A DNA stretch of 64,000 nucleotides from Roseibium sp. TrichSKD4 (lineage in GTDB: Bacteria > Pseudomonadota > Alphaproteobacteria > Rhizobiales > Stappiaceae): contig NZ_GL476320.1 of assembly GCF_000148725.1 (NCBI RefSeq), positions 1,044,189-1,108,188 of the forward strand, written 5' to 3'. Positions 6,173 through 26,754 of the stretch are shown one piece after another. The position numbers were made by a program, and so were the translations under genes. The number at the start of each line of letters is the position of its first letter. The first letter of the stretch is position 1. The notes under the pieces are model-generated. The model did not search any database. It had not been told where the DNA came from and saw only the letters and a list, made by a program, of their open reading frames with translations.

Positions 6173-6517
6173 GGCTATGCTCACACGGGCCCTGAAAGCA
6201 TTTCCCATCAAAATGGACACTGCAACCAAGCTCTTTTAGATTGTGCAATCTGGTATTGTAATCGCATGAAACCTCTAATATTCATCGAAATATCTAGTTT
6301 GGCCTTTCGTTTTCAATACAATTGTCACTCCAATCTTTTGATGACCCCGAATCACAAAGAAATCCGGCGGCGTTTTGAACAGTGCCTAGAATTCATTGGG
6401 CGTGGGCTGTTTTGGAGGCACATGTGGATCGCAGCAATCTGATGAACCAATTCGGGGTCTCGGCCAACCACGCATCCATTTTCCAGAAGCCAACAATTTC
6501 ATTTGAGGAGAGCGAGA
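6173..6517. promoter_or_regulatory. Intergenic leader upstream of the defence operon, with an inverted repeat
   Basis: These 345 bases between the IS30 element and the DUF262 gene contain no supportable gene. They are AT-rich, which fits a promoter, but I see no convincing sigma-70 pair. An inverted repeat AGATTG-TG-CAATCT at 6238-6251 is a candidate operator. The ribosome-binding site AGGAG (6506-6510) lies 7 nt before a TTG codon at 6518 and decides the start of the first operon gene. Confidence 0.4.
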
Positions 6518-8440
6518 TTGGGTAAACAAGCCGCATTTAAGACCAACCCGGTCAGCTTGGAGGACCTTCTCCGTCAATGTGGGAATGGCAAGATTCAGTT
6601 GCCAGATTTCCAGCGCAGCTGGGTTTGGGACGAGGAACGGATCAAGGGGCTGATCGCCTCGATCTCGCAGGCGTTTCCGGTCGGCGCGTTGATGACGCTA
6701 GAGGTGAAGTCTGGCGCGGCTGATACCTTTGCGCGGCGACCAATCCAGGGGGCAGATACCGCCGTGGGCAACGACTCACCGGATCAGCTCTTGCTGGATG
6801 GCCAGCAGCGCATGACCTCACTTTATCAGACATGCCTACGCCGCGAAGTAGTGCAAACGGTAACTCCTCGCCTCAAGCTTGTGAAGCGCTGGTTTTACAT
6901 TGACATTCGAAAAGCAATGAATCAGGCCGAGGACAGGGAGAACGCTATTGTCTCTGTTCCCGAGGACCGGCGGATCAAGTCGGACTTCGACCGGAAAATC
7001 GACCTCGATCTTTCCACGCCAGAACGCGAATACCAAAACCTTATGTTCCCGCTGAACCAGGTTTTTGACTGGGATGAATGGCAAGATGGGTTTAACGAGT
7101 CCTGGCTGGAAAACAACCCGGAGACACGCAAGCTCTTTAAGCCTTTCAAGGATGAGGTCCTTCAGAACTTCAAGGCCTACCAGCTGCCCGTGATCGCATT
7201 GAGCCCCGACACTTCCCACGAAGCCGTTTGTCTGGTCTTTGAGAAGGTGAATACCGGCGGCAAGCCGCTCGACGCATTCGAGCTTGTGACAGCGATGTAT
7301 GCAGCCCGCGGCCATCGCCTGCGGGACGACTGGCTCGGCGCCGACGGCCAGCCGGGGCTCCAGTCGAGACTTCAGCTTTTTGGGCGGGCAGCCGAACAGA
7401 AGTTCGGCGTGCTGGAAAAAGTCGCGGCAACAGATGTGCTCCAGGCCATCGCCCTCCTGCATGGGGTCGAGACCCGTGCGGCCGAAATCGCCGCAGGGCG
7501 CAAAGAGTCGGAGCTGTCCGCAGTCAGGGCCACGCGTCAGTCGCTACTAGACCTGCCGCTGGAGGCTTACCTGAAACACCGTGCTGCGGTCGAAGACGGT
7601 TTCAAGACTGCGGCGAAGTTCCTCCGACAGAACTACATCTACCGGGTCATCGATCTGCCCTATCAGGGCCAGCTTGTCCCCTTTGCCGCGATCCTCGCCA
7701 TCATCGGACCAAGGTTCGACCACGCTGCAGTGAAAGACCAGCTCGCTCGCTGGTTCTGGTGCGGCATTTTCGGTGAACTCTATGGCTCGGCCATCGAGTC
7801 CCGATTTGCCAAGGATGTGCTCGAGGTGCCCGCATGGCTGGACGGTGGTCCCGAACCCAGCACAATCACCGATGGTCGTTTCCGACCGGAACGACTGCGC
7901 ACCCTGCGCACCCGCCTGTCGGCCGCCTACAAAGGCATCCACGCTCTTCTGATGGCCGAAGGCGCGAGAGATCTTCGCTCCGGCCAGCACTTCAAGGACA
8001 CCGTGTTCTTCGACGAATACGTCGATATCCACCACATCTTCCCGCAGGACTGGTGCAAGAAGCAGAAGATCGAGCCGAAGGTCTTTGACACCGTCGTCAA
8101 CAAGACCCCGCTCAGCTACAAGACCAACCGCATTCTTGGCGGCGTAGCACCATCGGTCTACCTGAAACGACTGGAAACAGGCGGAAAGGACAACCCGCCG
8201 ATCGCCCGCGAAGCGCTTGATGATTATCTGGCGTCCCACGGGTTGGATCCCTCCTTGCTGAGGGCGGATGACTTCGAGGGCTTCATGGCGGATCGGGAGA
8301 CGCGGCTCCTTGCAATGATTTCAAAGGCAACCGGGCATGCGATCGTCAGGGCAGATTCCGTGCCGGAGGAAGGCGAGGACGTTCTCCAGGACGACGAAGG
8401 CTTCGATGTTCCAAGCCCGGACGCCGAGGAGGCCGCCTGA
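6518..8440 (+). CDS. DUF262/DUF1524 (GmrSD-like) nuclease, first gene of defence operon
   Basis: Encodes 640 residues from the TTG at 6518, chosen for its well-placed AGGAG; a TTG at 6503 is in frame but lacks one. The N-terminal half is a DUF262 domain with the hallmark DGQQR (about residues 94-98), a ParB/sulfiredoxin-like NTPase motif. The C-terminal part is a DUF1524 His-Me finger nuclease with VDIHHIFPQ (His 505/506) and the downstream N-TPLSYKTNR element. This two-domain plan is that of GmrSD type IV restriction enzymes, BrxU and SspE, which attack modified or foreign DNA. The stop abuts the next ATG with no gap, so it is co-transcribed and probably coupled with the helicase gene. Partnership with the downstream genes is inferred from the operon. 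Confidence 0.88.
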   Translation: MGKQAAFKTNPVSLEDLLRQCGNGKIQLPDFQRSWVWDEERIKGLIASISQAFPVGALMTLEVKSGAADTFARRPIQGADTAVGNDSPDQLLLDGQQRMTSLYQTCLRREVVQTVTPRLKLVKRWFYIDIRKAMNQAEDRENAIVSVPEDRRIKSDFDRKIDLDLSTPEREYQNLMFPLNQVFDWDEWQDGFNESWLENNPETRKLFKPFKDEVLQNFKAYQLPVIALSPDTSHEAVCLVFEKVNTGGKPLDAFELVTAMYAARGHRLRDDWLGADGQPGLQSRLQLFGRAAEQKFGVLEKVAATDVLQAIALLHGVETRAAEIAAGRKESELSAVRATRQSLLDLPLEAYLKHRAAVEDGFKTAAKFLRQNYIYRVIDLPYQGQLVPFAAILAIIGPRFDHAAVKDQLARWFWCGIFGELYGSAIESRFAKDVLEVPAWLDGGPEPSTITDGRFRPERLRTLRTRLSAAYKGIHALLMAEGARDLRSGQHFKDTVFFDEYVDIHHIFPQDWCKKQKIEPKVFDTVVNKTPLSYKTNRILGGVAPSVYLKRLETGGKDNPPIAREALDDYLASHGLDPSLLRADDFEGFMADRETRLLAMISKATGHAIVRADSVPEEGEDVLQDDEGFDVPSPDAEEAA

Positions 8441-11400
8441 ATGAAAGCGTTTGAGTTCGACCATCAATTGATCCGTGCTTACGAGCACTTTTCGCGTTCA
8501 TTCAGCGCAATTCGGGCGCCCGACCTGAAATCCGAGATCGATGCCCAGTACGACGCCGGAAAATTCTGGCCGGATGCCCTATTGTCTCTGAACCCACGCT
8601 TCATGGCGGGGCCGACGGTCGATGAACTTGTCACCACGGGTGATCTCGACGACGGTACGGGCAAGGTTTTCCGGTTTGGCACCACGCCTCTTCGCTTTCA
8701 CCGGCACCAAGCCGAGGCGATCGCGAAGGCGAAGCAAGGAAAGAGTTATGTCGTCACGACCGGTACGGGTTCGGGGAAATCCCTGTGCTTCTTTGTGCCG
8801 GTTGTCGACGCGATCATCCGCGCGCGACGCGCAGGAAAGCAGCGCCGCACGACGGCAATCATCGTTTACCCCATGAACGCACTGGCAAATAGCCAGATGA
8901 AGGAGATCGACAAGTTCATCGCCGGTTCCGGTTTGCCCGATGAGCTCAAGCCGGTGGTCAAACGTTACACCGGTCAGGAAAGCCGTGAAGAACGCGAGCG
9001 CATCGCTGCCAATCCGCCCGATGTTCTCCTGACGAACTACATGATGGCGGAACTGCTTCTGACGCGTCAGGACGACCTGGACTCGAAAGTCGTCTCGAAC
9101 GCGTCCGGTCTCGAATTCATCATTCTCGACGAACTCCACACCTATCGCGGGCGCCAAGGTGCCGATGTCGCGGTCCTCGTTCGACGCCTGCGGGACAGGT
9201 GCTCGCCTGACAAGGAGCCAATCTGCATCGGGACCTCGGCAACGATGGCCTCCGAGGGATCGGACGAGAGCCGCTCGCTTGCTGTCGCGAAGGTAGCGTC
9301 TCGTCTGTTTGGCACCGACATTGGCCCGGACGCGGTCATTGACGAGTCTTTGCAACGCGCGACCGATGACACCCTGAAGACCGAGCACGTCCTTGGCGCT
9401 TTGAAGACAGCCCTGACTCAGCCTTTGCCGGACGTACTCGATGACGAAACCCTGAAGCGCCATCCGCTCTCGGTGTGGGCCGAACTCGAACTTGGATTGG
9501 ACGATGGGCTTGAGATTCGCAGGAAGAAGCCTATCCCTTTCGAAGAAGCCGTTGAAAAGCTTTCTCTGGCCAGCGCGGTCGATGCCGAAACCTGCCGAGA
9601 CTATCTCGAAAGATTCCTGACCCGTGTAAGCCTGCCGGAGCATGAGCGCGGCGGCACAAAGGACGGAGCCTTTCTCGCCTTCAAACTCCACCGTTTCATC
9701 TCCGGTGCGGGTGAAGTCTTTACGACGCTCACAGCCAGGCCGCGTAGGATCCTTCTTGAAGGACAGCTCGAGGACCCCGAAGCCCCTGGAAACCGCCTCT
9801 ACCCCACGCGGTTCTGCCGAAATTGTGGCCAAGAATACCATGTCGTGACCAAGGTCGACGATGATGGGAGCCTGCGCTTTCTGCCTCGAAGCATCGACGA
9901 CACGCCGCTCGACACTGAAGAAGACGAGGTCGCTGGGTATCTCTGTCCGGTGACGCCCGGCGATACGGACTTCCAGTTCACAGGCGAGCTTGAGGGTTAC
10001 CCCGAAAGCTGGCGAGAAGAGAAAAACGGCATTGAACGGCTGAGAGGGTATCGCAAGAAGCGTATGCCGGTGTCCTACGTCGTTGGTGCCGATGGTCGCC
10101 ACGGAGCGGGCGGAAACGATTTCTGGTTCATCCCGGGAAAGTTCGCGTTCTGCCTGTGCTGCCATGACGAACCGACGCAGGGGATGCGTGAGCGCAGCAA
10201 GTTGGCAGGTCTGTCCGGCGAAGGGCGAAGCTCGGCAACAACCTTGCTGGTCGCCAGCGCCCTGGAGTGGATGAACAAACCTGGCAGCGGCGTACCCGAG
10301 ACGAAGCGGAAGCTTTTGGGGTTCACGGATAACCGTCAGGATGCAGCCCTGCAGTCCGGCCATTTCAATGACTTCCTGTTCGTAAGCCTTTTGCGCGGAG
10401 CCATCCTTCGCGCGGTCATTGCTGCCGGCTTAGGTGGGCTCGCAGAAGACGAGTTTGGCCTGCAGGTGGTGAAGGCGCTCGGCTTTACTGCCGCCAACAA
10501 AGAGGCGCGCCAGCATTGGCTGCTGGATTCGAATGCTGGTGCCATCATTCGTGAAGATGCCCAACGGTCGCTCGCAAAGGTACTCGCCCATCGTGTCTGG
10601 ACGGACCTGCGTCGCGGTTGGCGCTTCACCAACCCCAGCTTGTCTGTCCTGAACCTGATCGACGTGATTTTCATCGGCCTCGAGGAGATCTCTGAAGATC
10701 GCGAGCGCTTCATGGCCATCCATCCAGCGCTGGGAGAGCTCGACCTCGAAAAGCGGCAGGCAATTCTGAAGAAAATTTTGTCGGCGATGCTCGAGGGGCT
10801 GGCTGTTCACACTGAGGATCTCGATCTTACCGTTCTCGATGGAGTGGCACAGAAATCCCGGAACTTGCTCCAGGCACCTTGGGCCATTGATCAAAAAGAA
10901 AACCCGCGTACTCGGTCATCGCTCGTCCTGCGTGGTGGCAGTAAGAACGTGGTCACACTGCGTGAAGAACAAACACTTCTTCGAGCTGGCCCCAATTCGC
11001 GGATCGCACGGCTAGTGAACAGGAACTCTGTTCTCGGCACCAAGCTGAACAAGGATGAATACTATGAGTTCATGGAAGGGATACTTGCCTTCCTGAGCGA
11101 CGAGGGGCTGCTGGTGCCAGTCGAACTCGATAGCGATGTGACGGGCTGGCGCCTTTCACCATCCGCCGTTCGGCTTGTGCCTGGACCGGCCCTCGCTGAT
11201 GAAACCAAGCGCGGTAACCAATATTTCCACGACCTTTACACCGCGATTGCCAGTGACCTTGGCGACGGGCGTAGTTCGTACTGGGGGCTGGAAGGACGCG
11301 AGCACACGGCTCAGGTTTCGCAGAAACAACGTGAATGGCGCGAGTGGCGGTTCCGGTTCGAACAGGATGACATGGAGCATCTTGCCACCTCGGAATACCG

Positions 11401-13618
11401 CACGGAAATTCGGGCAACGGGCGAGTCAGACCGGTTCCTGCCCGCGCTGTTCTGCTCTCCGACCATGGAACTCGGCGTTGATATTTCCGCCTTGAACGCT
11501 GTCTACCTGCGCAACGTACCGCCTACGCCAGCGAATTACGCGCAGCGTGCTGGCCGTGCCGGTCGCTCAGGCCAAGCCGCGGTTGTCGTGACATACTGCG
11601 CCTCGGGGTCTCCGCATGACCAGTATTTCTTTGAACGGCGCAACGATATGGTTGCCGGCGTCGTGCGGCCGCCAGCGCTCGACATCACCAATGAAGAGCT
11701 GGTCCGATCGCACCTGCATGCGGTGTGGCTTGCGGAAGCGAAACTGGCGCTTTCTCCTGACATCCCAGAGATTCTGGACCTTCACGGGGATAAATTCCCG
11801 CTGAAGGAAGATGTTCTGGCGGTCATCTCGAAACCCGCTCTGGTCTCGCAGGCACGGGGACCGATGGCGCATGTCTTGAAGCAAATTCTGGCGTCCAACG
11901 GAGGGCAAACCCCGATCTGGATGGACGATCCCGACGAGTTCGTTCTTCACACGGCCATGAACGCGCCAAAGGAATTTGACCGCGCCTTCAACCGTTGGCG
12001 CGATCTATACAACTCTGCCAGAAAGCAGTTGAGCGACGCAAACACTCGCTCGGAGATTACAGGCCTGTCAGGAGTTGACCGGCGCAAGATCAAGGCTGCT
12101 CAGATGCAGGCCCAGGATCAAATTGCCATCCTAGAACAAGGCAAAGCCTCGAATGCCTCCGATTTCTATACCTATCGGTATCTGGCCACAGAGGGCTTCC
12201 TGCCCGGATACAACTTCCCGCGCCTACCCCTCTACGCCTTTATTCCGGGAGAAGGTAAAGCGGGCAATTTCCTGTCCAGAGCCCGCTTCCTGGCCATTTC
12301 CGAATTCGGCCCGCGCAGTCTGATCTATCATGAGGGTCGCGCCTACCGGGTTATGAAGGCCAAGCTTCCTCCGCAGGCACCTCAAGGTGACGGACCTGAG
12401 TTGGCAACCGAAGACATCTACATCTGTTCCAACTGTGGTGCATCGCATGAGGGCGAAGTCGAGCGTTGCCATGGGTGTTACAACCACATGGCGGGTGAGG
12501 TCCCCATCAAGAAGACCTTGCGCATCGACAACGTCGAGGCGGCCCCGACTGAGCGTATCACGGCGAATGATGAAGAGCGCGTTCGGCAGGGCTTCGACAT
12601 CCAGACCGTCTTTTCCTGGCCGAGGAAGGATGGGCAGGTCCAAGTGACTAACGCCAAATTCGTCTGTGGCGAGACTTCCCTCTTGGCCCTGCAATACGCC
12701 AACAGTGCGGAAATCAGCCGACTGAACAAGGGCTTGAAGCGCCGAAAGGACCAGACGGTCTTCGGTTTCCACATCGATCCGAGGTCCGGATACTGGGCGA
12801 AATCCGACGACGAGGATAGCGACACGGACGTCCCGCCGGACGTGGTCAAGCCGGTTCGCATTGTTCCGATTGTCCGCGATAGAAAGAATGCCCTGCTGTT
12901 CCGCTTCGAAAAGCCAGAGCAGTATGAGCCCGAGACAATCGCGACTGTTCAGCATGCGTTGCTGCGCGGAATCGAAGTGGTTTTCCAGTTAGAGGAAGGC
13001 GAAATCCTCGGTGAACCGCTGCCCGCGAGGGACAACCGTCGCGCAATCCTTGCCTACGAGGCAACGGAAGGCGGCGCCGGCGTGCTCACGCGCCTGATTG
13101 ATGACGGAAAGGCAATCAACGAGGTGGCGAAGACCGCACTGGGTTTGATGCACTTCGAGAATGTCGATGCTGCGATTGCGGCGGGTGATGCTGATCTGTT
13201 GCAAGAGAAGAAAGACGGAAGCTGTGTTCGCGGCTGCTACCGTTGCCTGTTGTCCTACTTCAACCAACCGGACCATGAGCTGATCGACCGCTCGAGCCCG
13301 GAAGTGGCGCAATTCCTGATCGATCTTGCACGCGGCACAATTTCCCTTGCTGCGAAGCCGACCGCTGGAACGGTGGTATCACCATGGCTTGAGGCATTCA
13401 GCGCCGCAGGTATTCCCCAAGTCGATACAATGCATGCGAGCTTTGGTGGACGCGAATTCGAGTTCGTTTGGCTCGCTTTCGCGGTTGCCGCAACGACCGC
13501 TGACCTGACAGCAGAAGCTGAGGCAGACGCGATGAACAAGGGCTGGGTTATTTTTGGATTGCCTTCGGCTCCATCGGAAGGACTGCCGGATGGCTTTATG
13601 AAGAATTTTGAAGGTTGA
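8441..13618 (+). CDS. Giant DEAD/DEAH helicase with Zn fingers and DUF1998-like C-terminus (DrmA-DrmB or DruE-like)
   Basis: Encodes 1725 residues. The helicase core shows Walker A TGTGSGKS (about 106-114), DELH (230-233), SAT motif GTSATM (~264) and a helicase C-terminal domain ending in QRAGRAGRSGQ (~1035). Several Cys clusters look like zinc ribbons: FCRNCG (~458), FCLCC (~570) and CSNCG...CHGC (~1329). The C-terminus has EATEGGAGVL (~1540) and CVRGCYRCLLSY (~1595), typical of DUF1998. In DISARM these functions are usually split between DrmA (helicase) and DrmB (DUF1998). A single large helicase with DUF1998 is also the plan of Druantia DruE. It probably translocates on DNA within the defence complex. 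The start directly follows the previous stop. Confidence 0.87.
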   Translation: MKAFEFDHQLIRAYEHFSRSFSAIRAPDLKSEIDAQYDAGKFWPDALLSLNPRFMAGPTVDELVTTGDLDDGTGKVFRFGTTPLRFHRHQAEAIAKAKQGKSYVVTTGTGSGKSLCFFVPVVDAIIRARRAGKQRRTTAIIVYPMNALANSQMKEIDKFIAGSGLPDELKPVVKRYTGQESREERERIAANPPDVLLTNYMMAELLLTRQDDLDSKVVSNASGLEFIILDELHTYRGRQGADVAVLVRRLRDRCSPDKEPICIGTSATMASEGSDESRSLAVAKVASRLFGTDIGPDAVIDESLQRATDDTLKTEHVLGALKTALTQPLPDVLDDETLKRHPLSVWAELELGLDDGLEIRRKKPIPFEEAVEKLSLASAVDAETCRDYLERFLTRVSLPEHERGGTKDGAFLAFKLHRFISGAGEVFTTLTARPRRILLEGQLEDPEAPGNRLYPTRFCRNCGQEYHVVTKVDDDGSLRFLPRSIDDTPLDTEEDEVAGYLCPVTPGDTDFQFTGELEGYPESWREEKNGIERLRGYRKKRMPVSYVVGADGRHGAGGNDFWFIPGKFAFCLCCHDEPTQGMRERSKLAGLSGEGRSSATTLLVASALEWMNKPGSGVPETKRKLLGFTDNRQDAALQSGHFNDFLFVSLLRGAILRAVIAAGLGGLAEDEFGLQVVKALGFTAANKEARQHWLLDSNAGAIIREDAQRSLAKVLAHRVWTDLRRGWRFTNPSLSVLNLIDVIFIGLEEISEDRERFMAIHPALGELDLEKRQAILKKILSAMLEGLAVHTEDLDLTVLDGVAQKSRNLLQAPWAIDQKENPRTRSSLVLRGGSKNVVTLREEQTLLRAGPNSRIARLVNRNSVLGTKLNKDEYYEFMEGILAFLSDEGLLVPVELDSDVTGWRLSPSAVRLVPGPALADETKRGNQYFHDLYTAIASDLGDGRSSYWGLEGREHTAQVSQKQREWREWRFRFEQDDMEHLATSEYRTEIRATGESDRFLPALFCSPTMELGVDISALNAVYLRNVPPTPANYAQRAGRAGRSGQAAVVVTYCASGSPHDQYFFERRNDMVAGVVRPPALDITNEELVRSHLHAVWLAEAKLALSPDIPEILDLHGDKFPLKEDVLAVISKPALVSQARGPMAHVLKQILASNGGQTPIWMDDPDEFVLHTAMNAPKEFDRAFNRWRDLYNSARKQLSDANTRSEITGLSGVDRRKIKAAQMQAQDQIAILEQGKASNASDFYTYRYLATEGFLPGYNFPRLPLYAFIPGEGKAGNFLSRARFLAISEFGPRSLIYHEGRAYRVMKAKLPPQAPQGDGPELATEDIYICSNCGASHEGEVERCHGCYNHMAGEVPIKKTLRIDNVEAAPTERITANDEERVRQGFDIQTVFSWPRKDGQVQVTNAKFVCGETSLLALQYANSAEISRLNKGLKRRKDQTVFGFHIDPRSGYWAKSDDEDSDTDVPPDVVKPVRIVPIVRDRKNALLFRFEKPEQYEPETIATVQHALLRGIEVVFQLEEGEILGEPLPARDNRRAILAYEATEGGAGVLTRLIDDGKAINEVAKTALGLMHFENVDAAIAAGDADLLQEKKDGSCVRGCYRCLLSYFNQPDHELIDRSSPEVAQFLIDLARGTISLAAKPTAGTVVSPWLEAFSAAGIPQVDTMHASFGGREFEFVWLAFAVAATTADLTAEAEADAMNKGWVIFGLPSAPSEGLPDGFMKNFEG

Positions 13619-13619
13619 T

Positions 13620-16391
13620 ATGACCGTGAATTTTACTCTTGGGGACCTTGTCAGAGCGCGCGGCCGTGAATGGGTTGCCTTACCGACACCTGGTGAGGGC
13701 CTGCTTGCCCTGCGTCCTCTCTCGGGCAATGAAAACGACATCGTGGTTCTTGCTCCGGATCTCGAGCTGGCACCCGTAGAAGCCGCTCGCTTCGACCTGC
13801 CTGACGACGCGCGCACGACAGTGCAGTCCAAGGCGGCCCTCCTTGCCGACGCGTTGCGACTGACCCTCCGCAGGGGGGCTGGCCCGTTCCGATCCGCCGC
13901 ACAGCTTGCGTTTGAGCCTCGGACGTACCAGCTTGTCCCGCTGCTCATGGCCCTTCGGCTTCAGGTCCCGCGGCTGTTGATTGCCGATGACGTTGGCATC
14001 GGCAAGACCATCGAAGCGGGTCTGATCCTGCGCGAACTGATGGATCGTGGAGAGGTCGATGCGTTTTCGGTTCTCTGCCCTCCGCACCTCGTGGACCAGT
14101 GGATCACCGAATTGAAGGATCGCTTTGGGATCGATGCCGTTGCCGTCACCTCCGGAACTGCGGCACGTCTGGAGCGCAACCTCCCATCGGCGCAAACCCT
14201 TTTCGATGCCTATCCGTTCACGGTGGTCAGCCTTGACTACATCAAAGCCGAGAAACGTCGGGATGGGTTCGCCAGGGCCTGCCCGGATTTCGTTATCGTC
14301 GATGAAGCACACGCCTGCGTCGGGACGCACAAGGGAAAGCAGCAGCGCTTCGACCTGCTTCAGGGCCTTGCACGCGATCTGGACCGTCGGTTGATCCTGC
14401 TGACAGCCACGCCGCACTCCGGGGATGAGGATGCGTTCGCTCGGCTGCTGTCTCTGATCGACACAGAATTCGGGACCGTCAACTTCGACAACCAGAAATA
14501 CCGCGAGCGCCTTGTCAGGCACTTTGTTCAGCGACGGCGCGTCGATCTGCTCGCGGGCGACTGGGATGAGAACCGCTCGTTCCCCAAGCACGAGACCAAC
14601 GAATACTCTTATCGCCTGAACGACGAGCATCGGGCCTTCCAGGAAGCCGTGCTTGATTACTGCTTCTCGGTCGTGTCTCGGGCCGGAGACGCGCAGAAGG
14701 ATCGCCGCCTTGCCTTCTGGGGCACTCTCGCGCTGATGCGCTGTGTCGGATCGTCACCCGCAGCCGCAATGAGCGCGTTGCGAAACCGGGCTTCCAATGA
14801 AAACGACCGCCTCGAGCCGCAGATATACGACGAAGACGGCGATGACGAAGACGCCGTGGACATTGAGCCAAACACCGTCTTTTCAAATGACCCCGCTCTC
14901 CAAGGGCTGCTCGACAAGGCCAGCGAACTTCTGACGGCCGAAGATCCCAAACTGAACGCCCTCATCAAGGCCCTCAAACCCTTGATCAAAGACGGCGCTA
15001 ACCCCGTCGTCTTCTGCCGCTACCTCGCCACGGCCGAACATGTGAAGGAAGGGCTTCGTAAAGCCTTCCCCAAGCTGAATGTGCAGGCCGTGACGGGTGA
15101 ACTGACGCCGGACGAACGTCGGGATCGCGTAGCGGAAATGGCGGCGGAAGAAAGTGCCGCCACAGATCAGCGCATCCTGGTCGCCACGGACTGCCTGTCG
15201 GAGGGGATCAACCTTCAACAGCTGTTCGACACCGTGATCCACTACGACCTTTCCTGGAACCCGACGCGTCACCAACAACGCGAAGGCCGCGTCAATCGCT
15301 TCGGACAGCCCGCCGAACTCGTTCGCTCAATCATGATGTTTTCGCCCGACAGCGCCATCGACGGTGCTGTCTTGGACGTCATTCTTCGCAAAGCCAAGGA
15401 AATCCACGACGCTACTGGCGTGACTGTGCCTCTGCCCGACGAGCGGGGACCGGTCACCGATGCACTGATGACTGCAATGATGCTCCGCCGTGGCGGTGGC
15501 AGCCACAAGCAGCTGACGCTGGACCTGCAAATCGGCGACGGTATCCAGGTGATGGAGACCCGCTGGCGCGATGCAAGCGAGAACGAAAAGCGATCACGTG
15601 CCCGGTTTGCACAAAACGCCATGAAGCCGAGTGAGGTCGCACCTGAATGGGACAAGGTGAAGTCCCTGCTTGGATCACCAGCAGAAACGCTCGAATTTCT
15701 CGAGCGCGCGATGTCTCGGTTCGGGGTGCCCCTCGAGAAGAAGAAATCGCTGCAATTCGCCCACGTGCATGCCCTTCAAGATAGCCTCAAGGAAAAGCTG
15801 GAGCAGCGTGGGCTGAAGGGCTCTCTGAAGCTGGCCACGCAAGAACCGGTGCCCTCAGGCGCTTCACTTCTGACCAGAACCCATCCGCTGACATCGTCCC
15901 TGGCAGAAAGCCTGCTTGAAGCCTCTCTTGACACCGAAGCGCTGCCGGATCTGGGCATCGGTCGTGTCGGGGCCTGGCCGAGTGCCGCCGTCACTCAGAT
16001 GACGCGTGTCGCGCTCTTGCGTATTCGCTACAAGCTCACGGTTCATGCACGGCGCGAGCGCCTTCTGCTGGCAGAGGAAGCCGCGCTCGTTGCCCTCGAC
16101 AGCAATACGGTGATCGCCTCTGGCAGCGAGGCGCGCGCGCTGCTTGCCTCTCCCGCGACTGCTGATCTTGCGTCTGTCGCCCGCGACCGGATGATCAATA
16201 CGGCGAAGGCGGCCCTTCCTGACCTGCTGGGCGGCCCGATTGCCGATTTCGTGCAAAAGCGTGCCGCGGAGCTGGTTGAAGACCACGCCCGCCTTCGTGC
16301 TGCAGCCGGGTCCGCGTCGCGTGTCAGTGTGGAGCCGATCATTCCCCCAGACGTCATCGGCCTCTTCGTTCTTGTTCCGGGGGAGGTGTAA
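13620..16391 (+). CDS. SNF2-family helicase, DrmD-like
   Basis: Encodes 923 residues from ATG 13620, which has GAAGG 5 nt upstream; an in-frame TTG at 13608 overlaps the previous gene and is less likely. Motifs: Walker A DDVGIGKT (~123), DEAH (~228), LTATPHSGD (~260), and a C-terminal helicase lobe with DCLSEGINLQ, YDLSWNPTRHQQREGRVNRFGQ-type motif VI (~551). The C-terminal ~300 residues are charged and unassigned. DrmD is the SNF2-like translocase that marks class 1 DISARM, where it precedes the adenine methylase gene, as here. ATP-driven DNA remodelling is known for the family; a role in excluding foreign DNA is inferred. The gap to the previous gene is 1 nt. Confidence 0.88.
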   Translation: MTVNFTLGDLVRARGREWVALPTPGEGLLALRPLSGNENDIVVLAPDLELAPVEAARFDLPDDARTTVQSKAALLADALRLTLRRGAGPFRSAAQLAFEPRTYQLVPLLMALRLQVPRLLIADDVGIGKTIEAGLILRELMDRGEVDAFSVLCPPHLVDQWITELKDRFGIDAVAVTSGTAARLERNLPSAQTLFDAYPFTVVSLDYIKAEKRRDGFARACPDFVIVDEAHACVGTHKGKQQRFDLLQGLARDLDRRLILLTATPHSGDEDAFARLLSLIDTEFGTVNFDNQKYRERLVRHFVQRRRVDLLAGDWDENRSFPKHETNEYSYRLNDEHRAFQEAVLDYCFSVVSRAGDAQKDRRLAFWGTLALMRCVGSSPAAAMSALRNRASNENDRLEPQIYDEDGDDEDAVDIEPNTVFSNDPALQGLLDKASELLTAEDPKLNALIKALKPLIKDGANPVVFCRYLATAEHVKEGLRKAFPKLNVQAVTGELTPDERRDRVAEMAAEESAATDQRILVATDCLSEGINLQQLFDTVIHYDLSWNPTRHQQREGRVNRFGQPAELVRSIMMFSPDSAIDGAVLDVILRKAKEIHDATGVTVPLPDERGPVTDALMTAMMLRRGGGSHKQLTLDLQIGDGIQVMETRWRDASENEKRSRARFAQNAMKPSEVAPEWDKVKSLLGSPAETLEFLERAMSRFGVPLEKKKSLQFAHVHALQDSLKEKLEQRGLKGSLKLATQEPVPSGASLLTRTHPLTSSLAESLLEASLDTEALPDLGIGRVGAWPSAAVTQMTRVALLRIRYKLTVHARRERLLLAEEAALVALDSNTVIASGSEARALLASPATADLASVARDRMINTAKAALPDLLGGPIADFVQKRAAELVEDHARLRAAAGSASRVSVEPIIPPDVIGLFVLVPGEV

Positions 16392-16393
16392 TC

Positions 16394-19300
16394 ATGGCCC
16401 GCAAACCAATTACCGATATGTCGGCGTGGCCGTCGCTGAGCCTCGAAGGCAACCTGATCGCGCCTGCGATGATCGCCAAGATCGATCAGCGCCAGGCACC
16501 CGAGCAATCCCCCGACGAATACGGGGTTCGCAAAGGTCTCCAGATCCGCGAGGAAATCGCGACCGCCTTCCGCGTAGGCCAATCGCATTTCGACGCCTTT
16601 GCAAAAATCGAGCAACCCTCGGCCGCCGCCACCTCGCGTTTCATCGCCGATTTCTTCAAGGAAACCTTCGGGTACACCGATCTCGCGGTGGCAGTAGCAC
16701 CGATCGCCCTGATCGCGTCCGACCGTGTGCCCGTCGTTGTGGTCCCGCCATCCGAACTGCTTGATCGTCGCAGCCCGACGCTCTCGACGGACAGGTCGCG
16801 GTCTCCGGCCTTTGCTCTTCAGGACCACCTGAATGATCGGGACGAGGCCCTTTGGGGCATCGTGACCAACGGGATGCAGTTGCGCCTCATGCGCGACAAT
16901 GCCTCCCTGACCCGCCCGGCCTATATCGAGGCTGATCTGGCGCAGATGTTCACCAACGAGGACATCGCGTCCTTTGCGGTGCTCTGGCTGCTGATCCACC
17001 GCACCCGCTTCGGCGCGGCAGACACCCCCGCCACCGATTGCCCGCTCGAACGCTGGCGCGATGCCGGCTCCAAGGAGGGCGAAGCCGCGCGTGATCGCCT
17101 GGCCGGTCAGGTCCAGCTGGCACTCAAACTGCTCGGCTCGGGCTTCCTCGAGGCCAACCCCGACCTCGCCGCGAAACTGCATTCCGGCGAAGTGAACCTG
17201 ACCGATTGGTTCAACGAGCTCCTGCGCCTCGTCTACCGCCTGATCTTCCTGATGGTGGCCGAGGACCGGAACCTCCTCCACCCGGAAAAGGCCAAACCCG
17301 AGGCCCGCGCCCTCTACGCCCAGGGCTATTCGCTCCAGTCGCTGCGCAAGCAATGTTACCGCGCCGCCACCTGGGACAAGCACCATGACCGCTACGAGGG
17401 GGTGAAGATCGTCTTCCGCGCGCTCACGCAGGGCCAGCCCGCCCTTGCGCTGCCCGCCCTCGGCGGCCTCTTTGCCGAGGACCGGCTGCCCCACCTCGAA
17501 ACCGCCCGCCTGCGCAACCGCGCCTTCATGGAGGCGCTCTACCGCCTCTCCTGGCTTGCCGACAAAGCCGGCATGGTCCCCGTCAACTGGCGCGCGATGG
17601 AGACCGAGGAGCTTGGTTCGGTCTACGAATCCCTCCTCGAACTCCAGCCCCAGCTGGGTGACGACGGGAAGACGCTGGTCTTCGCCTCCGAGGCGGCCGA
17701 GCAGAAGGGCAACCAGCGCAAGACCACCGGCTCCTACTACACGCCCGACAGCCTCGTTCAGGCGCTGCTCGACACCGCGCTCGACCCCGTGCTCGACAAG
17801 ACGGAAGGAGAGGCGGACGATCCCGCCAAGGCGCTGCTGAAGCTCTCGGTCATCGACCCCGCCTGCGGCTCGGGGCACTTCCTGCTGGCCGCAGCCCGCC
17901 GCATCGCCACGCGGCTGGCGCGCATCCGGGCCGAGGGCACGCCCTCGCTCGCCGACTTCCGCCATGCCCTGCGCGATGTCGCGCGATGCTGCATCCACGG
18001 GGTGGACCGCAACCCGATGGCGGTGGAGCTGACCAAGGTCGCGCTGTGGATCGAGACAGTGGATCCCGGCCTTCCACTCGGCTTCTTCGACGCGCAGATC
18101 CGCTGCGGCGATGCGCTGCTGGGGGTGTTCGACCTGCAGGTGCTGCAGGACGGTATTCCCGATGCCGCCTACAAGCCGCTGACCGGCGACGACAAGGAAA
18201 CCGCGAAATACTACCTCAAGGCCAATCGCGATGCGACGGCGGGGGCGAGCGGCTTCGATTTCGGGACCGGCACGTTCACCATGCCTGAAGTCAAACCGCT
18301 GGCGCTGGATTTCTCGGGCTTCCGCGACCTGCCCGAGGATACGGTCGAGCAGATCGGCGCCAAGGCCAAGCGGTTCAGGGAGCTGCGCAAGGGGCAGACC
18401 TTTGTCCGCGCCAAGGCGGCGGCGGACCTTTATGTGGCAGCCTTCCTGCTGCCCAAGGTCGGCGGCGCACCGGCGGGGGCGTCGGAGCGGACAGTACCGA
18501 CGACCGAGGAGCTGTGGATGGCTCTCAATCAGGGGAAGATGCGCCAGGCGATGAATGATGCCCCCAACGCCGCCCGCAATGCCCGCGCCCTGCATTGGCC
18601 GCTGGAGTTCCCCGATGTGATGCAGCGCGGTGGGTTCGATGTGGTACTGGGTAACCCGCCGTGGGAGCGCATCAAGCTGCAGGAGCAGGAGTTCTTTGCC
18701 TCCCGCTCGCCCGAGATCGCAAATGCCCCCAACAAGGCGGCGCGGGACAGGCTGATCAAGGAATTGGAGACGGCCGAGCAGGGCAGCACACATCGTGCGC
18801 TGTTCGATGCGTTTACCGAGACCAAGCGCGAGGCCGAGGCGACCAGCCAATTTGTTCGAATGTCGGGAGAGGATAGCGGGCGCTTTGCCCTCACTGGCCG
18901 TGGCGACGTGAACACCTATTCACTGTTCGCGGAACTATTCTTGATGCTGATCAGGCCGCTTGGCCGAGCAGGAATCATTGTGCCTTCGGGCATAGCCACC
19001 GATGCAACAAATGCACCGTTTTTCTCATACCTTGTTGAGCAGGAAAAACTTGCGCGTCTAATATCATTTGAAAACGAAGAGTTCATTTTCCCTTCGGTTC
19101 ATCACTCATTCAGATTCAGCCTAATTACAATTTCAAATCAACGAACAAAGGCGCCTGATTTTGCCTTCTTTCTGCGCAGAACGGCTCAAATATCCGAACA
19201 AGACAGGAACTTCAATTTAACATCTCAACAGATATACAGAATCAATCCGAACACAATGACTGCGCCGGTGTTCCGCTCGAAGATCGATGCAGAGCTTACA

Positions 19301-20329
19301 GCAAAACTGTACGAAAATGCTACAATCGTACTGCGTGAGGCTGATCACAAAAGTGGAAATCCATGGAATGCAAACTTCCACTCCAGGATTTGGCATATGT
19401 CGGAAGACTCAGAGTATTTCAGAACCGCCGAACAGTTAAGCACCTGTGGCTATGTACGTCGGGGCCAACTATGGGAGAAAAGCGAGAGCACAAGCGAAAG
19501 ATCTGATATCTATGCGCCCCTTTACGAAGCGAAAATGATCCATCAATTTGACCACCGCTGGGCGACTTACGATGCATCGGGCAATGTGATTTCCTCTGAT
19601 GAAACCGGATTTACATACGACTTCTCAAACGAGGCGACGCCTCGATATTGGGTCCCACAGAAAGAACTGCGGAAACGACTAGAAGCGAATGGCTGGGGGC
19701 GTCAATGGCTTCTTGGGTGGCGGGACATTACCAGCGCTCATGTCTATCGCACGCTTATAGCCTCTGTATTCCCACAAGCGGCAAGCGGCGATACGCTGCT
19801 TTTAATCTTCCCCAATCCACCTGACGTTAGGCAGCTCGCGGGGTTAGTAGCAAATTTGTCCGCACTGACCTTGGATTATATCGCAAGGCAAAAGGTAGGC
19901 GGTACTCATTTGAAATTTAACGTGTTTTATCAACTTCCAGTTATCCTTCCCGACTTCTACACCGAATCTCGCCTCGCCTTCCTCACCCCGAAGGTGCTGG
20001 AACTCACCTACACCTCGCACAGCCTCGCCCCCTTCGCCCGCGATCTGGGCCATGACGGCCCGCCCTTCGCCTGGGACGAGGACCGCCGCGCCCACCTGCG
20101 CGCCGATCTCGACGCCTTCTACGCCCGCGCCTACGGCCTGACCCGCGACGAGCTGCGCTACATCCTCGACCCCGCCGACGTGAAGGGCCCCGACTACCCC
20201 TCGGAAACCTTCCGAGTCCTCAAGGAAAAGGAAATCCGCCAACACGGCGAATACCGCACCCGCCGCCTCGTCCTCGCCGCCTGGGACCGGATGGAAGCGA
20301 ACGGCGAATTCACGGCGATGGGGATGTAG
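16394..20329 (+). CDS. Large N6-adenine DNA methyltransferase (Eco57I/PglX/DrmMI-like)
   Basis: Encodes 1311 residues. An N-terminal ~450-residue helical region precedes a gamma-type N6-adenine methyltransferase core: SAM motif I DPACGSGHFL (~488) and catalytic NPPW (~754). Next comes a variable region expected to read the target site, then a conserved C-terminal tail. No PD-(D/E)XK nuclease motif was noticed at the N-terminus, so it may act only as a modification enzyme that marks self DNA. Size and layout fit PglX/BrxX and DISARM DrmMI. Codons for residues ~853-1189 (nt ~18950-19965) are strikingly AT-rich compared with both flanks: one sampled line in the middle counts 21/60 G+C against 39/60 earlier in the gene. 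This suggests that the recognition domain was replaced by recombination. Starts 2 nt after the previous stop. Confidence 0.9.
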   Translation: MARKPITDMSAWPSLSLEGNLIAPAMIAKIDQRQAPEQSPDEYGVRKGLQIREEIATAFRVGQSHFDAFAKIEQPSAAATSRFIADFFKETFGYTDLAVAVAPIALIASDRVPVVVVPPSELLDRRSPTLSTDRSRSPAFALQDHLNDRDEALWGIVTNGMQLRLMRDNASLTRPAYIEADLAQMFTNEDIASFAVLWLLIHRTRFGAADTPATDCPLERWRDAGSKEGEAARDRLAGQVQLALKLLGSGFLEANPDLAAKLHSGEVNLTDWFNELLRLVYRLIFLMVAEDRNLLHPEKAKPEARALYAQGYSLQSLRKQCYRAATWDKHHDRYEGVKIVFRALTQGQPALALPALGGLFAEDRLPHLETARLRNRAFMEALYRLSWLADKAGMVPVNWRAMETEELGSVYESLLELQPQLGDDGKTLVFASEAAEQKGNQRKTTGSYYTPDSLVQALLDTALDPVLDKTEGEADDPAKALLKLSVIDPACGSGHFLLAAARRIATRLARIRAEGTPSLADFRHALRDVARCCIHGVDRNPMAVELTKVALWIETVDPGLPLGFFDAQIRCGDALLGVFDLQVLQDGIPDAAYKPLTGDDKETAKYYLKANRDATAGASGFDFGTGTFTMPEVKPLALDFSGFRDLPEDTVEQIGAKAKRFRELRKGQTFVRAKAAADLYVAAFLLPKVGGAPAGASERTVPTTEELWMALNQGKMRQAMNDAPNAARNARALHWPLEFPDVMQRGGFDVVLGNPPWERIKLQEQEFFASRSPEIANAPNKAARDRLIKELETAEQGSTHRALFDAFTETKREAEATSQFVRMSGEDSGRFALTGRGDVNTYSLFAELFLMLIRPLGRAGIIVPSGIATDATNAPFFSYLVEQEKLARLISFENEEFIFPSVHHSFRFSLITISNQRTKAPDFAFFLRRTAQISEQDRNFNLTSQQIYRINPNTMTAPVFRSKIDAELTAKLYENATIVLREADHKSGNPWNANFHSRIWHMSEDSEYFRTAEQLSTCGYVRRGQLWEKSESTSERSDIYAPLYEAKMIHQFDHRWATYDASGNVISSDETGFTYDFSNEATPRYWVPQKELRKRLEANGWGRQWLLGWRDITSAHVYRTLIASVFPQAASGDTLLLIFPNPPDVRQLAGLVANLSALTLDYIARQKVGGTHLKFNVFYQLPVILPDFYTESRLAFLTPKVLELTYTSHSLAPFARDLGHDGPPFAWDEDRRAHLRADLDAFYARAYGLTRDELRYILDPADVKGPDYPSETFRVLKEKEIRQHGEYRTRRLVLAAWDRMEANGEFTAMGM

Positions 20330-20332
20330 GCG

Positions 20333-21487
20333 ATGGCGGTCATCGACCCCGTCGTCAACAGTCGGGTGGCCGACTTCATCCGCGGCGCGGTCCAGTCGAT
20401 TTTCGACTCGCGCTTCGACTGGACGCCGGACGCCGAGTCTATCCTCGCGCTGATGCGCGAGGGTGGCATGACGCCCGAGCAGGAGCGGCGCTTTCGCCCC
20501 TATTTCGATCTGTTCGTCGAGCAGGCCCGAAAGGGCGAGATCAGCGGTTTCAACCCGCAGGTCGACGATGAGACATTCGTCGACTACCCCCCAAAGTTCG
20601 ACCTCGACGCACTGCTGACACCGCCCGCGTCGCCCGACGCGCAGAAGGACCTGTTCGACGGAACCGGCACGCGAACCGAGTCCGAGCGCGCCCTGATCGA
20701 CCAGCTGATCGCGGCGACGAAGCTCTATGACAGCAGCGAGGCGATCCAGGAGCTGTTCGCCTTCACCATCAACCTCCGCGAGTTCGCACCATTCAATGCG
20801 ATGTTACTGCACATCCAGAAGCCCGGCCTGACGCACGCGGCAAGCGCGCATGACTGGTGGCACAGGTTCGGTCGGGTGCCGAAAAAGGGCGCACGACCTC
20901 TCTTGGTGCTGCGCATGAAGGGGCCGGTCGATTTCGTGTTCGACGTGCAGGATACCGAAGGCAAGGACCTGCCGGTCGAAGCGTTCTCTTTTCCGACCTT
21001 CGGCAATCTGAGCGACACCCGCTTCGCCGAATTCATGCGGGCCGTCAGCAAGGAGAAGATCGATCTCGTTCCGCTGGACGCAGGAGACAGTCAGGCAGGC
21101 TGGATCCGGCTGCTCGCCCGCGCGAAGAACGACAAGGGTAAAAATTTCTACCAGCTGGCCTACAACCGGAATCATGCCGCACCGACGCGTTTCGTGACTG
21201 TCGCCCACGAACTGGCGCACCTGTATCTCGGCCATCTTGGTGCGGACATCGGACGACGCGTTCCCGACCGGAGCCACACGCCTCACGCGCTGATGGAAGT
21301 GGAGGCTGAAATGGCGGCCTACCTGGTGGCGAAGCGCAACGGGCTTGAGCCGAGGAGCGAAAGCTACCTGTCGAATTACAAGGGTGCCTTCGAGGACCTG
21401 AACCTCTACGCGGTCACGAGAACCGCGAATGCCGTGGAAACCGCGATGGGCATCTCCGCCCAGAAGCTCTGGAACGAGAAGGCATGA
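20333..21487 (+). CDS. ArdC-like protein: N-terminal DNA-binding-like domain plus ImmA/IrrE-type zinc metallopeptidase
   Basis: Encodes 384 residues. The middle part (LREFAPFNAMLL, then W175-W176 and GRVPKKGARP at 180-189, then FDVQDT) resembles the single-stranded-DNA-binding domain of the plasmid antirestriction protein ArdC. The C-terminal part has the zinc-peptidase signature HELAHLYLGH (His 292 and 296), with a downstream acidic helix MEVEAEMAAYLV as third ligand. ArdC is known to block restriction. Here the protein sits inside a defence operon, 3 nt after the methylase gene, so it may regulate or activate the system by proteolysis, or protect the host. That role is inference. A plain ImmA/IrrE regulator peptidase is the alternative. 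Confidence 0.78.
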   Translation: MAVIDPVVNSRVADFIRGAVQSIFDSRFDWTPDAESILALMREGGMTPEQERRFRPYFDLFVEQARKGEISGFNPQVDDETFVDYPPKFDLDALLTPPASPDAQKDLFDGTGTRTESERALIDQLIAATKLYDSSEAIQELFAFTINLREFAPFNAMLLHIQKPGLTHAASAHDWWHRFGRVPKKGARPLLVLRMKGPVDFVFDVQDTEGKDLPVEAFSFPTFGNLSDTRFAEFMRAVSKEKIDLVPLDAGDSQAGWIRLLARAKNDKGKNFYQLAYNRNHAAPTRFVTVAHELAHLYLGHLGADIGRRVPDRSHTPHALMEVEAEMAAYLVAKRNGLEPRSESYLSNYKGAFEDLNLYAVTRTANAVETAMGISAQKLWNEKA

Positions 21488-21491
21488 GGGA

Positions 21492-22256
21492 ATGATCGAG
21501 ACGCCCCAATCCTTCGTGACCCGCCAGGAATGCGATAAGGTCACCTACCAGAATGGCTTCAGGCGCCCCCATGGCGAAACCAAGGGCTGGCAGCGGTACA
21601 GTTCGACGACCGCGCAGGGGTCAATCTGGCTCGCTCGGCACACTTCCGGTCCGTGGCTCCTCGCCCTGGATCATGCCGGGGTCATCGCAGAGATCGGGAT
21701 TGAGGCGTCCGATGCCGCAGGACCAGGCCTCGCACGGTTCCGGTTTGCCTCGCTGGCACAGCTTTATGACGTGATGCCAAGAGTTTACGAGCTTGCCGCT
21801 AGCCTTCCCGACGCACCACTTCAGGAATTCCTGCACCTTACAGAAACCCTGCCCAGGACGACAGAAGCGGAGCGGCTCGTCGCCCAGCGTGTCGGCCAGA
21901 ACATTTTTCGTGAGCGACTGTTGCAATACTGGCAGGGGCGCTGTCCCTTGACCGGAATTGCCGACAAACCTCTTCTCCGTGCCTCCCACATCAAGCCATG
22001 GCGCGACTGTGAAAACGATGCAGAGCGTCTGGATGTCCACAACGGCCTGCTTCTGTCGGCTCTTTGGGATGCCGTATTCGATGGCGGTCTGGTGACCTTC
22101 GGCGATGACGGGACCCCTGTCTTTTCGGAGAACCTCAGCGAGCAGGCGCGTGCGCGACTCCATTATGATCGGCCAGTCGATCTGACCGAAAAGCATCGGG
22201 TCTTCCTGGAGTGGCATCGGACGAAGATATTCGACGCCAAGGCGCCTGACTGTTGA
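21492..22256 (+). CDS. HNH endonuclease, last gene of the defence operon, stop codon supplied by IS21 end
   Basis: Encodes 254 residues from ATG 21492 (4 nt after the previous stop); an in-frame upstream extension to 21429 overlaps the previous gene and is rejected. The C-terminal half is an HNH domain: CPLTG (Cys 151), ASHIKPW (His 166), NGLLLSALWDAVFD (Asn 184), as in the HNH_2 group often found with restriction genes. The N-terminal half is unassigned. The last residues, Asp-Cys-stop, fall where the IS21 inverted repeat begins (22251), so the natural C-terminus may have been lost; the catalytic motifs are upstream and intact. It is probably an effector nuclease; no DISARM-type phospholipase-D gene is present. 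Confidence 0.82.
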   Translation: MIETPQSFVTRQECDKVTYQNGFRRPHGETKGWQRYSSTTAQGSIWLARHTSGPWLLALDHAGVIAEIGIEASDAAGPGLARFRFASLAQLYDVMPRVYELAASLPDAPLQEFLHLTETLPRTTEAERLVAQRVGQNIFRERLLQYWQGRCPLTGIADKPLLRASHIKPWRDCENDAERLDVHNGLLLSALWDAVFDGGLVTFGDDGTPVFSENLSEQARARLHYDRPVDLTEKHRVFLEWHRTKIFDAKAPDC

Positions 22257-22329
22257 TTGCCACTGAGAATTGACCCATGTGCAACCTTGCCCTGGCGCGA
22301 AGCAGCTGGGGGCTACAGGAGTGTTAGAC

Positions 22330-23859: not shown

Positions 23860-24639
23860 CCCCGCAGGTGCAGCCCTCATCATCATGTTGCGCAGCCTGA
23901 AGATGTCAGGGATGGTGCAGGCCGTGCAGGACCTGCATGAGCAAGGTTCACCCGCATTCGAGGCTGCCATACCGATCCTGTCGCAGCTGCTCAAGGCCGA
24001 AATGGCCGAGCGTGAGGTGCGCTCGATCGCCTATCACATGAAGGTCGCCCGCTTTCCGGCCTACAAGGATTTGTCCACCTTCGACTTCGCGGCCAGTGAA
24101 ATGCGTGAAGCTTTGGTTCGCCAGCTCTATCGATGCGAATTCCTGGATGGAGCCGAGAATGTGGTGCTGATCGGGGGGCCTGGCACAGGGAAATCGCATG
24201 TTGCGACGGCCCTCGGTATCCAGGCTATCGAACATCATCGCAAGCGCGTGCGTTTCTTCTCAACGGTCGAACTGGTCAACGCTCTGGAGCAGGAAAAGGC
24301 CCAGGGCAAGGCTGGCAAGATCGCAGAGGCGCTGGTGAAAACTGACTTGGTGATCCTGGATGAGCTCGGATACCTGCCGTTCAGCGCCTCTGGTGGGGCC
24401 TTGCTCTTCCATCTTCTGAGCAAACTCTACGAGCGCAGCAGCGTCATCATCACCACGAACTTGAGCTTCAGTGAATGGGCCAGCGTGTTCGGCGAAGCCA
24501 AGATGACCACCGCGCTGCTCGATCGCCTCACCACCGCTGCCACATTCTGGAAACCGGCAATGACAGCTATCGCTTCAAGGCCAGCTCCGAGACGGCAAAA
24601 AAGAAACGAAAGGAAACAGCAGCATTGACGCCAACATGA
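23849..24639 (+). pseudogene. istB: IS21-family helper ATPase IstB with C-terminal frameshift
   Basis: Starts at ATG 23849 (MRHDPAG), overlapping the extended istA frame. AAA+ features are intact: Walker [10 protein letters not shown] and Walker [13 protein letters not shown]. Near 24530 a one-base deletion (CTCACCACC where CTCACCCACC is expected) shifts the frame. As read, it ends at 24628 with unrelated residues. In the restored frame the usual ending [16 protein letters not shown] appears and stops at 24639. Confidence 0.82.
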
Positions 24640-25358: not shown

Positions 25359-25369
25359 GTTTGGCCTTG
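25342..25369 (+). terminator. Hairpin at the end of the hypothetical gene
   Basis: CAAGGCCAA (25342-25350) pairs perfectly with TTGGCCTTG (25361-25369) around a loop that contains the stop codon. No T run follows, so this could be a factor-dependent terminator or simply an RNA structure. The 200 bases from here to the next gene hold nothing else that I can identify. Confidence 0.35.
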
Positions 25370-26663: not shown

Positions 26664-26754
26664 AGCAGGCATATCAAGATGACATCTGGGTGACCGCCAG
26701 AGAAATGACCATTGTTGTGACAGGTGGACCGGGTCAATTGGCGGGCGGAAATAT

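Follow-up and report, generated by a model that had tools for sequence, protein, structure and literature searches.

The window analysed here is a stretch of 64,000 nucleotides from Roseibium sp. TrichSKD4 (contig NZ_GL476320.1, positions 1,044,189 to 1,108,188). It contains an operon of six genes, all on the plus strand (6518-8440, 8441-13618, 13620-16391, 16394-20329, 20333-21487 and 21492-22256) and separated by gaps of 0, 1, 2, 3 and 4 nucleotides, as a preliminary description of the sequence had stated. The genes encode, in order, a DUF262 protein, a YprA-family helicase, an SNF2 helicase, an N6-adenine methylase, an M78-type metallopeptidase and an HNH endonuclease. The operon is real and unbroken, and its three-gene core is already known. 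As judged from its sequence, it is probably an ARMADA Type I-like defence operon belonging to a distinct HNH branch, with methylase-marked, helicase-driven restriction in which an HNH protein would cut in trans.

Three of the six genes constitute the core. The YprA-family (DruE/DrmA-like) protein of 1725 amino acids (8441..13618) joins a superfamily 2 helicase to a DUF1998/MZB region (Pfam DEAD, Helicase_C and MZB; PADLOC DruE 256 bits, DrmA 53 bits). The RapA/BrxHII/DrmD/DpdE-like SNF2 helicase (13620..16391; Pfam SNF2 and Helicase_C; PADLOC DpdE 643 bits, DrmD 257 bits) is 87-99% identical between the window and its close relatives throughout its length (50-residue blocks, 24-25 sequences). 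The PglX/DrmMI-like N6-adenine methyltransferase of 1311 amino acids (16394..20329; Pfam Eco57I 2e-18 and N6_Mtase; PADLOC DrmMI 258 bits) has an NPPW motif; a sequence search of PDB with it gave no match at E 0.001. The open reading frames (ORFs), of 645 (DUF262, from the first TTG), 1725 (YprA), 927 (SNF2), 1311 (methylase) and 384 (M78) amino acids, match the lengths of their relatives, and therefore none of the six genes appears broken.

Relation to named defence systems

The preliminary description had called the operon DISARM/Druantia-like with no named system of its composition. The trio is in fact the named core of ARMADA Type I, neither DISARM nor Druantia, and so the operon is not an unnamed hybrid of those two. 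In the main text of Bell et al. 2025 (bioRxiv, PMC12458937), ARMADA Type I starts with the gene of a YprA helicase, behind which generally come genes for a BrxHII-like helicase and a PglX-like methylase. In the window the same families stand in the same order, with the DUF1998 region likewise fused to the helicase. It differs from that description in the loss of the motif of the C-terminal Vsr nuclease, which in ARMADA YprA proteins is predicted to be active, in the HNH gene that is a stable fourth gene of its branch, and in its DUF262 and M78 cargo; because the nuclease motif is lost, the window is a variant and not a typical Type I member. The terms GmrSD, DUF262, M78, peptidase, SMC and Lamassu were not found in that main text, and HNH and WYL occur there only in reference titles. 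Two other papers name ARMADA together with DISARM and Druantia, one of which (PMC13192584) mentions it twice in the text available, and no paper describing the six-gene set was found in the literature searched. Thus, as far as these sources show, the architecture specific to the branch is new.

The families were supported by PADLOC and Pfam; profile searches of the six proteins against NCBIfam gave no match above curated cut-offs. The best PADLOC names, in gene order, were PDC-M55C, DruE, DpdE (then DrmD), DrmMI, a weak RT_III-A match, and HNH. DISARM class 1 resembles the operon in having DrmD- and DrmMI-like proteins (both matched in PADLOC, with DrmD below its NCBIfam cut-off, 284 versus 610) and DrmA/DrmB-type functions. 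The preliminary description was correct on these two genes, and also in holding that the DrmA and DrmB functions appear fused and that DrmC is absent: helicase and MZB/DUF1998 lie in one 1725-residue protein instead of separate drmA and drmB products, and no phospholipase D (PLD) domain was found in the six proteins (Pfam, E 0.001), whereas matches to the PLD-helicase models of PADLOC and NCBIfam are confined to the helicase portion of the SNF2 protein. DISARM class 1 was rejected on this gene content.

Druantia combines DruE with type-specific partner genes. The YprA protein scores highest in PADLOC against DruE, but DruE is the only Druantia component among the PADLOC matches listed (at most 25 per protein, a limit reached for three of them), and the operon has a methylase and an SNF2 helicase, so Druantia was rejected. 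Dpd systems comprise 7-deazapurine DNA modification genes together with DpdE and DpdJ. The SNF2 protein matches one PADLOC DpdE model along its length, but the Dpd matches listed are of helicase type only (DpdE, DpdF and DpdJ in PADLOC), the NCBIfam DpdE score is 201 against a cut-off of 500, and no 7-deazapurine synthesis family was found by Pfam among the six proteins; Dpd was rejected as well. ARMADA Type II shares the three core families, but has its own gene order, with SNF2 and methylase genes before a gene for a YprA protein of about 2130 amino acids (two seen) and then an ArmD-like UvrD/GajB helicase, which the window lacks; the operon is not of this type either.

The Vsr remnant and the HNH nuclease

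Relatives were collected by a genome scan with the YprA protein (28 loci), from plasmid matches (202 records, of which 40 were listed), and by whole-genome searches at E 1e-100, which gave matches in 6 of 289 genomes at class level, 14 of 398 at phylum level and 21 of 390 at order level. The neighbourhood table comprises 67 loci scored together, with upstream genes scored in the 64 that have enough DNA; it excludes L020, L025, L044, L045, L058, L071, L072, L080, L028 (below the score limit) and the later locus L098. The tree, and with it a 58-locus tally, excludes the duplicates L071, L072 and L080, L027 (broken tail), the partial loci L020, L025, L028 and L058, and L008 and L082, whose YprA genes are broken (both have HNH, and the tail of L082 is without the Vsr motif). 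Nine of the 67 tree rows carry no HNH state (L007, L018, L044, L045, L055, L068, L069, L081 and L098), and, since the plasmid record of L035 is interrupted at the origin, its HNH-positive state was assigned by hand. The DUF262, WYL, M78 and SMC labels rest on one query each at E 1e-5, so that distant members (e.g. the DUF262 genes of L029 and L079) are uncounted.

The C-terminal tails of 61 non-redundant YprA proteins were compared, which revealed a loss that could not be seen in the preliminary description. Distant YprA relatives retain a [PA]DFxY...DGxxH-like signature in the tail, and this signature is absent from the window and its branch, where a remnant (13373..13618, approximate limits, plus strand) occupies the position that the fused Vsr-type nuclease has elsewhere. 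A profile of eight intact tails had weak top matches in PDB to an endonuclease-like protein, a mobile-intron protein and Vsr (3hrl, E 0.028; 3r3p, 0.045; 1cw0, 0.32). In blocks of 50 residues, identity to the window's YprA protein is 78-99% up to residue 1600 and 73-82% in the tail (24-25 sequences including the window). The window and 64 relatives are set apart in the YprA tree from two Type II-like proteins, the reference Type I protein of Bell et al. being outside this tree.

The last gene (21492..22256) encodes an HNH endonuclease of 254 amino acids with a VcaM4I-type H-N-D...D active site (Pfam HNH_2; hmmsearch against 6yex, E 6e-24), alignable end to end with 20 relatives. In the VcaM4I HNH domain, as given in the part of PMC7897488 consulted, H224, D250 and D254 are catalytic and N241 is structural; H166, D193, D197 and N184 of the window protein align with these respectively and are invariant in all 21 close sequences. 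VcaM4I is an EVE-HNH restriction enzyme, and the N-terminal part of the window protein was not matched to an EVE domain by sequence (profile residues 123-247 alone aligned). A predicted model of the HNH protein had a mean predicted local distance difference test score (pLDDT) of 68, fair in the N-terminal part and poor in the HNH part, and for this reason is not used for any claim.

A window-family HNH gene lies within 5.5 kb 3' of the methylase gene in 44 of the 67 loci, several others being cut by contig ends. Among 58 scorable loci, 43 have a dead Vsr tail and HNH, 12 have an intact tail without HNH, three have a dead or degraded tail without HNH, and none has both an intact tail and HNH. 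Among 20 whole genomes, 11 of the 12 with dead Vsr carry HNH at their ARMADA locus (in the twelfth, G293, the contig ends within the methylase gene), and the family is absent from seven of eight genomes with intact Vsr, the eighth having a weak match on another contig only. The pattern amounts to a stable association across the branch. The tree implies four changes of the Vsr state and three of the HNH state; of only four independent pairs, two point the expected way and two carry no information, which gives a sign-test p of 0.5, and on a 28-row tree the placement of all dead-Vsr rows in one clade is not rejected by the approximately unbiased test (p-AU 0.166). The association is therefore attributed to one or two origins and not to repeated replacement.

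These last two results also weigh against a functional exchange of Vsr for HNH, as the whole pattern could be one inherited event, and several further points count on the same side. The likeness between profiles of dead and intact tails is weak (co-linear, E 0.0085, probability 4.7), and because of this low probability their shared origin is argued mainly from position. Three loci have a dead or degraded tail without HNH: L033, in which IS21 directly follows the methylase gene, and L083 and L084, half-degraded and from other phyla. Loci were chosen by similarity to the window helicase, which is why the intact-Vsr set is small. HNH-negative calls in L036, L039, L063, L064 and L083 are based on no more than about 2-4 kb beyond the methylase gene, with about 0.5 kb past the SMC gene in L063. 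HNH states were assigned by hand, and the Vsr pattern was loosened before the 58-locus tally, changing L059 from absent to present. HNH relatives also occur outside ARMADA on some plasmids. On one of these, from Paracoccus (L040, 16014-18768), an HNH gene (63%) comes directly behind an SMC-like gene, with no YprA gene in the 37 kb covered; the two may be a remnant or an independent pair.

These outlying copies bear on the strongest alternative, that the HNH and cargo genes are independent small defence systems beside an ARMADA core that works without DNA cleavage, perhaps through a block to replication, and does not need the dead Vsr domain. The optional genes do vary among close relatives, M78 relatives as well as HNH relatives are found away from ARMADA, and some ARMADA II proteins have additional inactivated nuclease domains according to the portion of PMC12458937 consulted. 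Independence is harder to reconcile with the retention of the HNH gene 3' of the methylase in those 44 loci, with its absence from all 12 intact-Vsr loci and with its position 4 nucleotides behind the preceding gene in the window. Moreover, of the 11 genomes with the HNH family at the ARMADA locus, 10 have it nowhere else at E 1e-8. The eleventh, G004, the genome of L017, has a second copy (52%) beside a second, partial YprA gene (57%, one internal stop; G004:C39:220-6000). On balance this alternative is rather unlikely, and a restriction system that includes the HNH protein is the preferred interpretation.

The recognition region, the cargo slot and the optional genes

The methylase consists of conserved ends and a hypervariable middle, a feature that was also beyond the reach of the preliminary description and emerged from identity comparison. 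In blocks of 50 residues, identity to the window is 88-99% up to residue 600, 63-83% over residues 601-800, 28-57% over 801-1200 and 80-83% over 1201-1300. The presumed target-recognition region spans approximately residues 760-1200 (18671..19993, plus strand), as delimited by block identity, pairwise identity and G+C content. Mean pairwise identity is 92% over residues 1-600 versus 37% over 820-1180, and the 51 of 276 pairs that are at least 97% identical over the former average 38% (21-66%) over the latter; the two identities are hardly correlated (Spearman 0.10, p 0.10, 276 pairs). The recognition region of L019 is 83-86% identical to those of L014 and L024, although L019 groups with the window in the YprA tree and L014 and L024 group with L005. 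In 24 of 24 methylases the G+C content of this region is below that of residues 1-750 (mean 0.52 versus 0.65; 0.48 versus 0.66 in the window), which might, less favourably to exchange, be an effect of amino-acid composition. The variable region appears to be an exchanged target-recognition domain, swapped many times between species, that would recognise DNA. In L063, L064 and L065 the methylase occupies two reading frames (about 920-1010 and 500 amino acids) with other DNA between them, ahead of SMC cargo.

Between the methylase and HNH genes lies a slot of varying content. In the window it holds the M78-type metallopeptidase (20333..21487, plus strand; Pfam Peptidase_M78, HELAH motif), an optional cargo that L017, L022 and L070 carry at this position too. 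The protein had been called an ArdC-like metallopeptidase; it is a metallopeptidase, but its ArdC likeness amounts to weak similarity to two proteins annotated as ArdC-like (E 7e-7 and 3e-6), with no Pfam ArdC match. Elsewhere the slot contains nothing, an SMC/LmuB-like ATPase (about 653 amino acids), a 262-residue unknown protein, a weakly uracil-DNA-glycosylase-like protein, a CBS-domain protein or a UvrD-like helicase. SMC occurs with HNH in 18 of the 67 loci and M78 with HNH in four. Methylases before SMC cargo are at least 1443 amino acids long in 16 of 16 cases (the start of L021 being over-long), whereas those without SMC have at most 1355 in 29 of 29; this comparison leaves out duplicates and methylases that are split, cut or unmeasured (L018, L029, L035, L039, L055, L057, L060, L063, L064, L065, L074 and L082-L088). 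Within the close set, the additional residues form a C-terminal extension that comes in two dissimilar sequence types and is present in 11 of 11 methylases with SMC versus 0 of 13 without. Despite the shared recognition region, L019 carries other cargo than the SMC-cargo loci L014 and L024.

Cargo families also occur in other settings. The window's M78 family is present within an ARMADA Type II-like operon of Haematobacter, just 3' of another in Microvirga, and away from ARMADA altogether; the two Type II-like operons (L044, 6090-24373; L045, 1-15942) have it after the methylase gene or just past the operon. The same UvrD-like helicase family (35%) is cargo in an HNH-branch operon (L034, 24437-27157) and follows SMC in an intact-Vsr operon (L095, 9959-12604). 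A Chloroflexota operon (L083, 18116-22608) has an extra 390-residue gene and a four-helix-bundle gene amid the core genes, and then a gene for an EVE-domain protein.

At the upstream end, the DUF262/GmrSD_N protein (6518..8440, plus strand; Pfam GmrSD_N, 7e-28; DGQQR and HHIFP motifs) has 640 amino acids from the TTG at 6518, which is preceded by GAGGAG; the eight relatives compared have the same start codon and the same GAGGAG (L002, L004, L015, L016, L018, L019, L022 and L025). Of its earlier designation as a DUF262/DUF1524 nuclease, the first half stands, but DUF1524 had no Pfam match (whole protein, E 0.001; C-terminal 246 residues, E 10, with most matches above 0.1 filtered out), and the C-terminal part shows an HHIFP...N...TN motif only. 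A close-family DUF262 gene directly precedes the operon core in 8 of 64 loci, and more distant ones lie about 0.1 kb 5' of YprA in L029 (39%) and L079 (41%); the protein is thus an optional upstream component and a possible second nuclease. Seven relatives with close DUF262 have upstream of it a WYL-domain regulator, complete in relatives at 295/311 amino acids, and a related regulator is found upstream in 17 of 64 loci. The window has a remnant only (6332..6477, plus strand; found by tblastn of the L015 protein, which has a WYL Pfam match, and by DNA comparison), in which the N-terminal part runs straight into DNA that relatives have about 47 bp before the DUF262 start. As other defence operons are WYL-controlled, this loss might by analogy alter expression of the operon.

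That the six genes are one functional system, as first proposed, would make DUF262 and M78 obligate parts of a single complex. The spacings of 0-4 nucleotides agree with this, as do the recurrence of M78 in its slot even in the more distant L070 and the presence of the same six genes in one other locus, L022. Among scorable loci (partial loci being unscored) the exact set is confined to the window and L022; elsewhere the stable part is the trio with HNH, DUF262 and M78 occur at the low frequencies given above, and one or both are missing from relatives whose YprA proteins are 95-97% identical. An obligate complex is thus very unlikely and was rejected, the operon not being one fixed unit, and the HNH-branch restriction operon with optional components is retained.

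The operon is bordered by insertion sequences (IS). Upstream is a transposase gene (5090..6229, minus strand; Pfam HTH_38 above and rve just below cut-off), which we take to be of IS30 type, and downstream is an IS21 istA/istB-like pair (22270..24628, plus strand; Pfam IstB_IS21 and Mu-transpos_C_2); both are outside the system. On the IS21 side the element adjoins the stop codon of the HNH gene, and comparison with relatives suggests that the last Cys codon and stop (22251-22256) may derive from the IS21 end. That the operon is a non-functional relic between these elements, as they and the WYL remnant might imply, is highly improbable and was rejected, since the six genes have the lengths of their orthologues and all checked motifs are kept.

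Beyond the IS21 genes (24819-28882) follow DUF3489, DUF2924, a large serine recombinase (26755..28566, plus strand; Pfam Resolvase and Recombinase), possibly an island mobility module, and 3' of it a tRNA-Gln gene (28809-28882, minus strand; ARAGORN), beside a Ppx/GppA gene; this array suggests a mobile island. In L006, a DNA match to the recombinase lies within a 565-residue ORF just 5' of the YprA gene. G+C content per 2-kb window is 0.56-0.66 over 6-24 kb versus 0.46-0.59 elsewhere, with overlapping ranges, and third-position G+C is 0.67-0.82 in the operon versus 0.57 in the recombinase and 0.53 in the Ppx-like gene. At the start of the window are two tandem paralogues (132-1577 and 2129-3646) that resemble each other in their N-terminal parts but differ at the C-terminus, where the second has an EndoU nuclease domain; they look like an interbacterial polymorphic-toxin array.

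Proposed mechanism and significance

The observed features are the gene content, the intact helicase, methylase and HNH motifs, the absent Vsr motif, the retention of HNH in the branch and the hypervariable region of the methylase; a defence function is predicted from these. The methylase would methylate adenine in a specific sequence and so mark self DNA, with the exchangeable recognition region setting which sequence is marked. The RapA-like and YprA-like motors would load on incoming unmarked DNA and translocate. The HNH protein would cut in trans, a role assigned to it because the YprA-fused Vsr domain is dead in this branch. The cargo, an ArdC-like M78 peptidase in the window and an SMC/Lamassu-like ATPase elsewhere, may contribute a further layer of sensing or effector action. 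An optional second nuclease may be provided by the DUF262/GmrSD-like protein. The logic of methylase, translocases and nuclease in the preliminary description is kept.

A partnership of methylase and motors is likely by analogy with published ARMADA Type II mutants. In the text of PMC12458937 consulted, all four Type II genes were needed for phage protection, as were the Walker motifs of ArmA and ArmC, the Walker A motif of ArmD and the NPPW motif, and two other motif mutants were only partly inactive. For Type I, no phage or methylome data were found in the literature searched, which tells against the proposed mechanism. Somewhat less confidently than its restriction function is proposed, the HNH branch may be a modular, reprogrammable system with a recognition region swapped between species as readily as the specificity subunits of Type I restriction enzymes, independently swapped cargo, a methylase extension that docks SMC cargo, and cutting moved to the trans-acting HNH protein.

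The main text of PMC12458937 gives no experimental test and no specificity mechanism for ARMADA Type I. The HNH branch provides two handles on such systems: a delimited recognition region, exchange of which should alter the motif that is methylated, and a nuclease gene that can be separated. There are relatives whose motors are nearly identical and whose recognition regions are unlike, so that which protein marks and which cuts would be directly testable, also in Paracoccus denitrificans DSM 413, whose genome (L016) carries the HNH branch.

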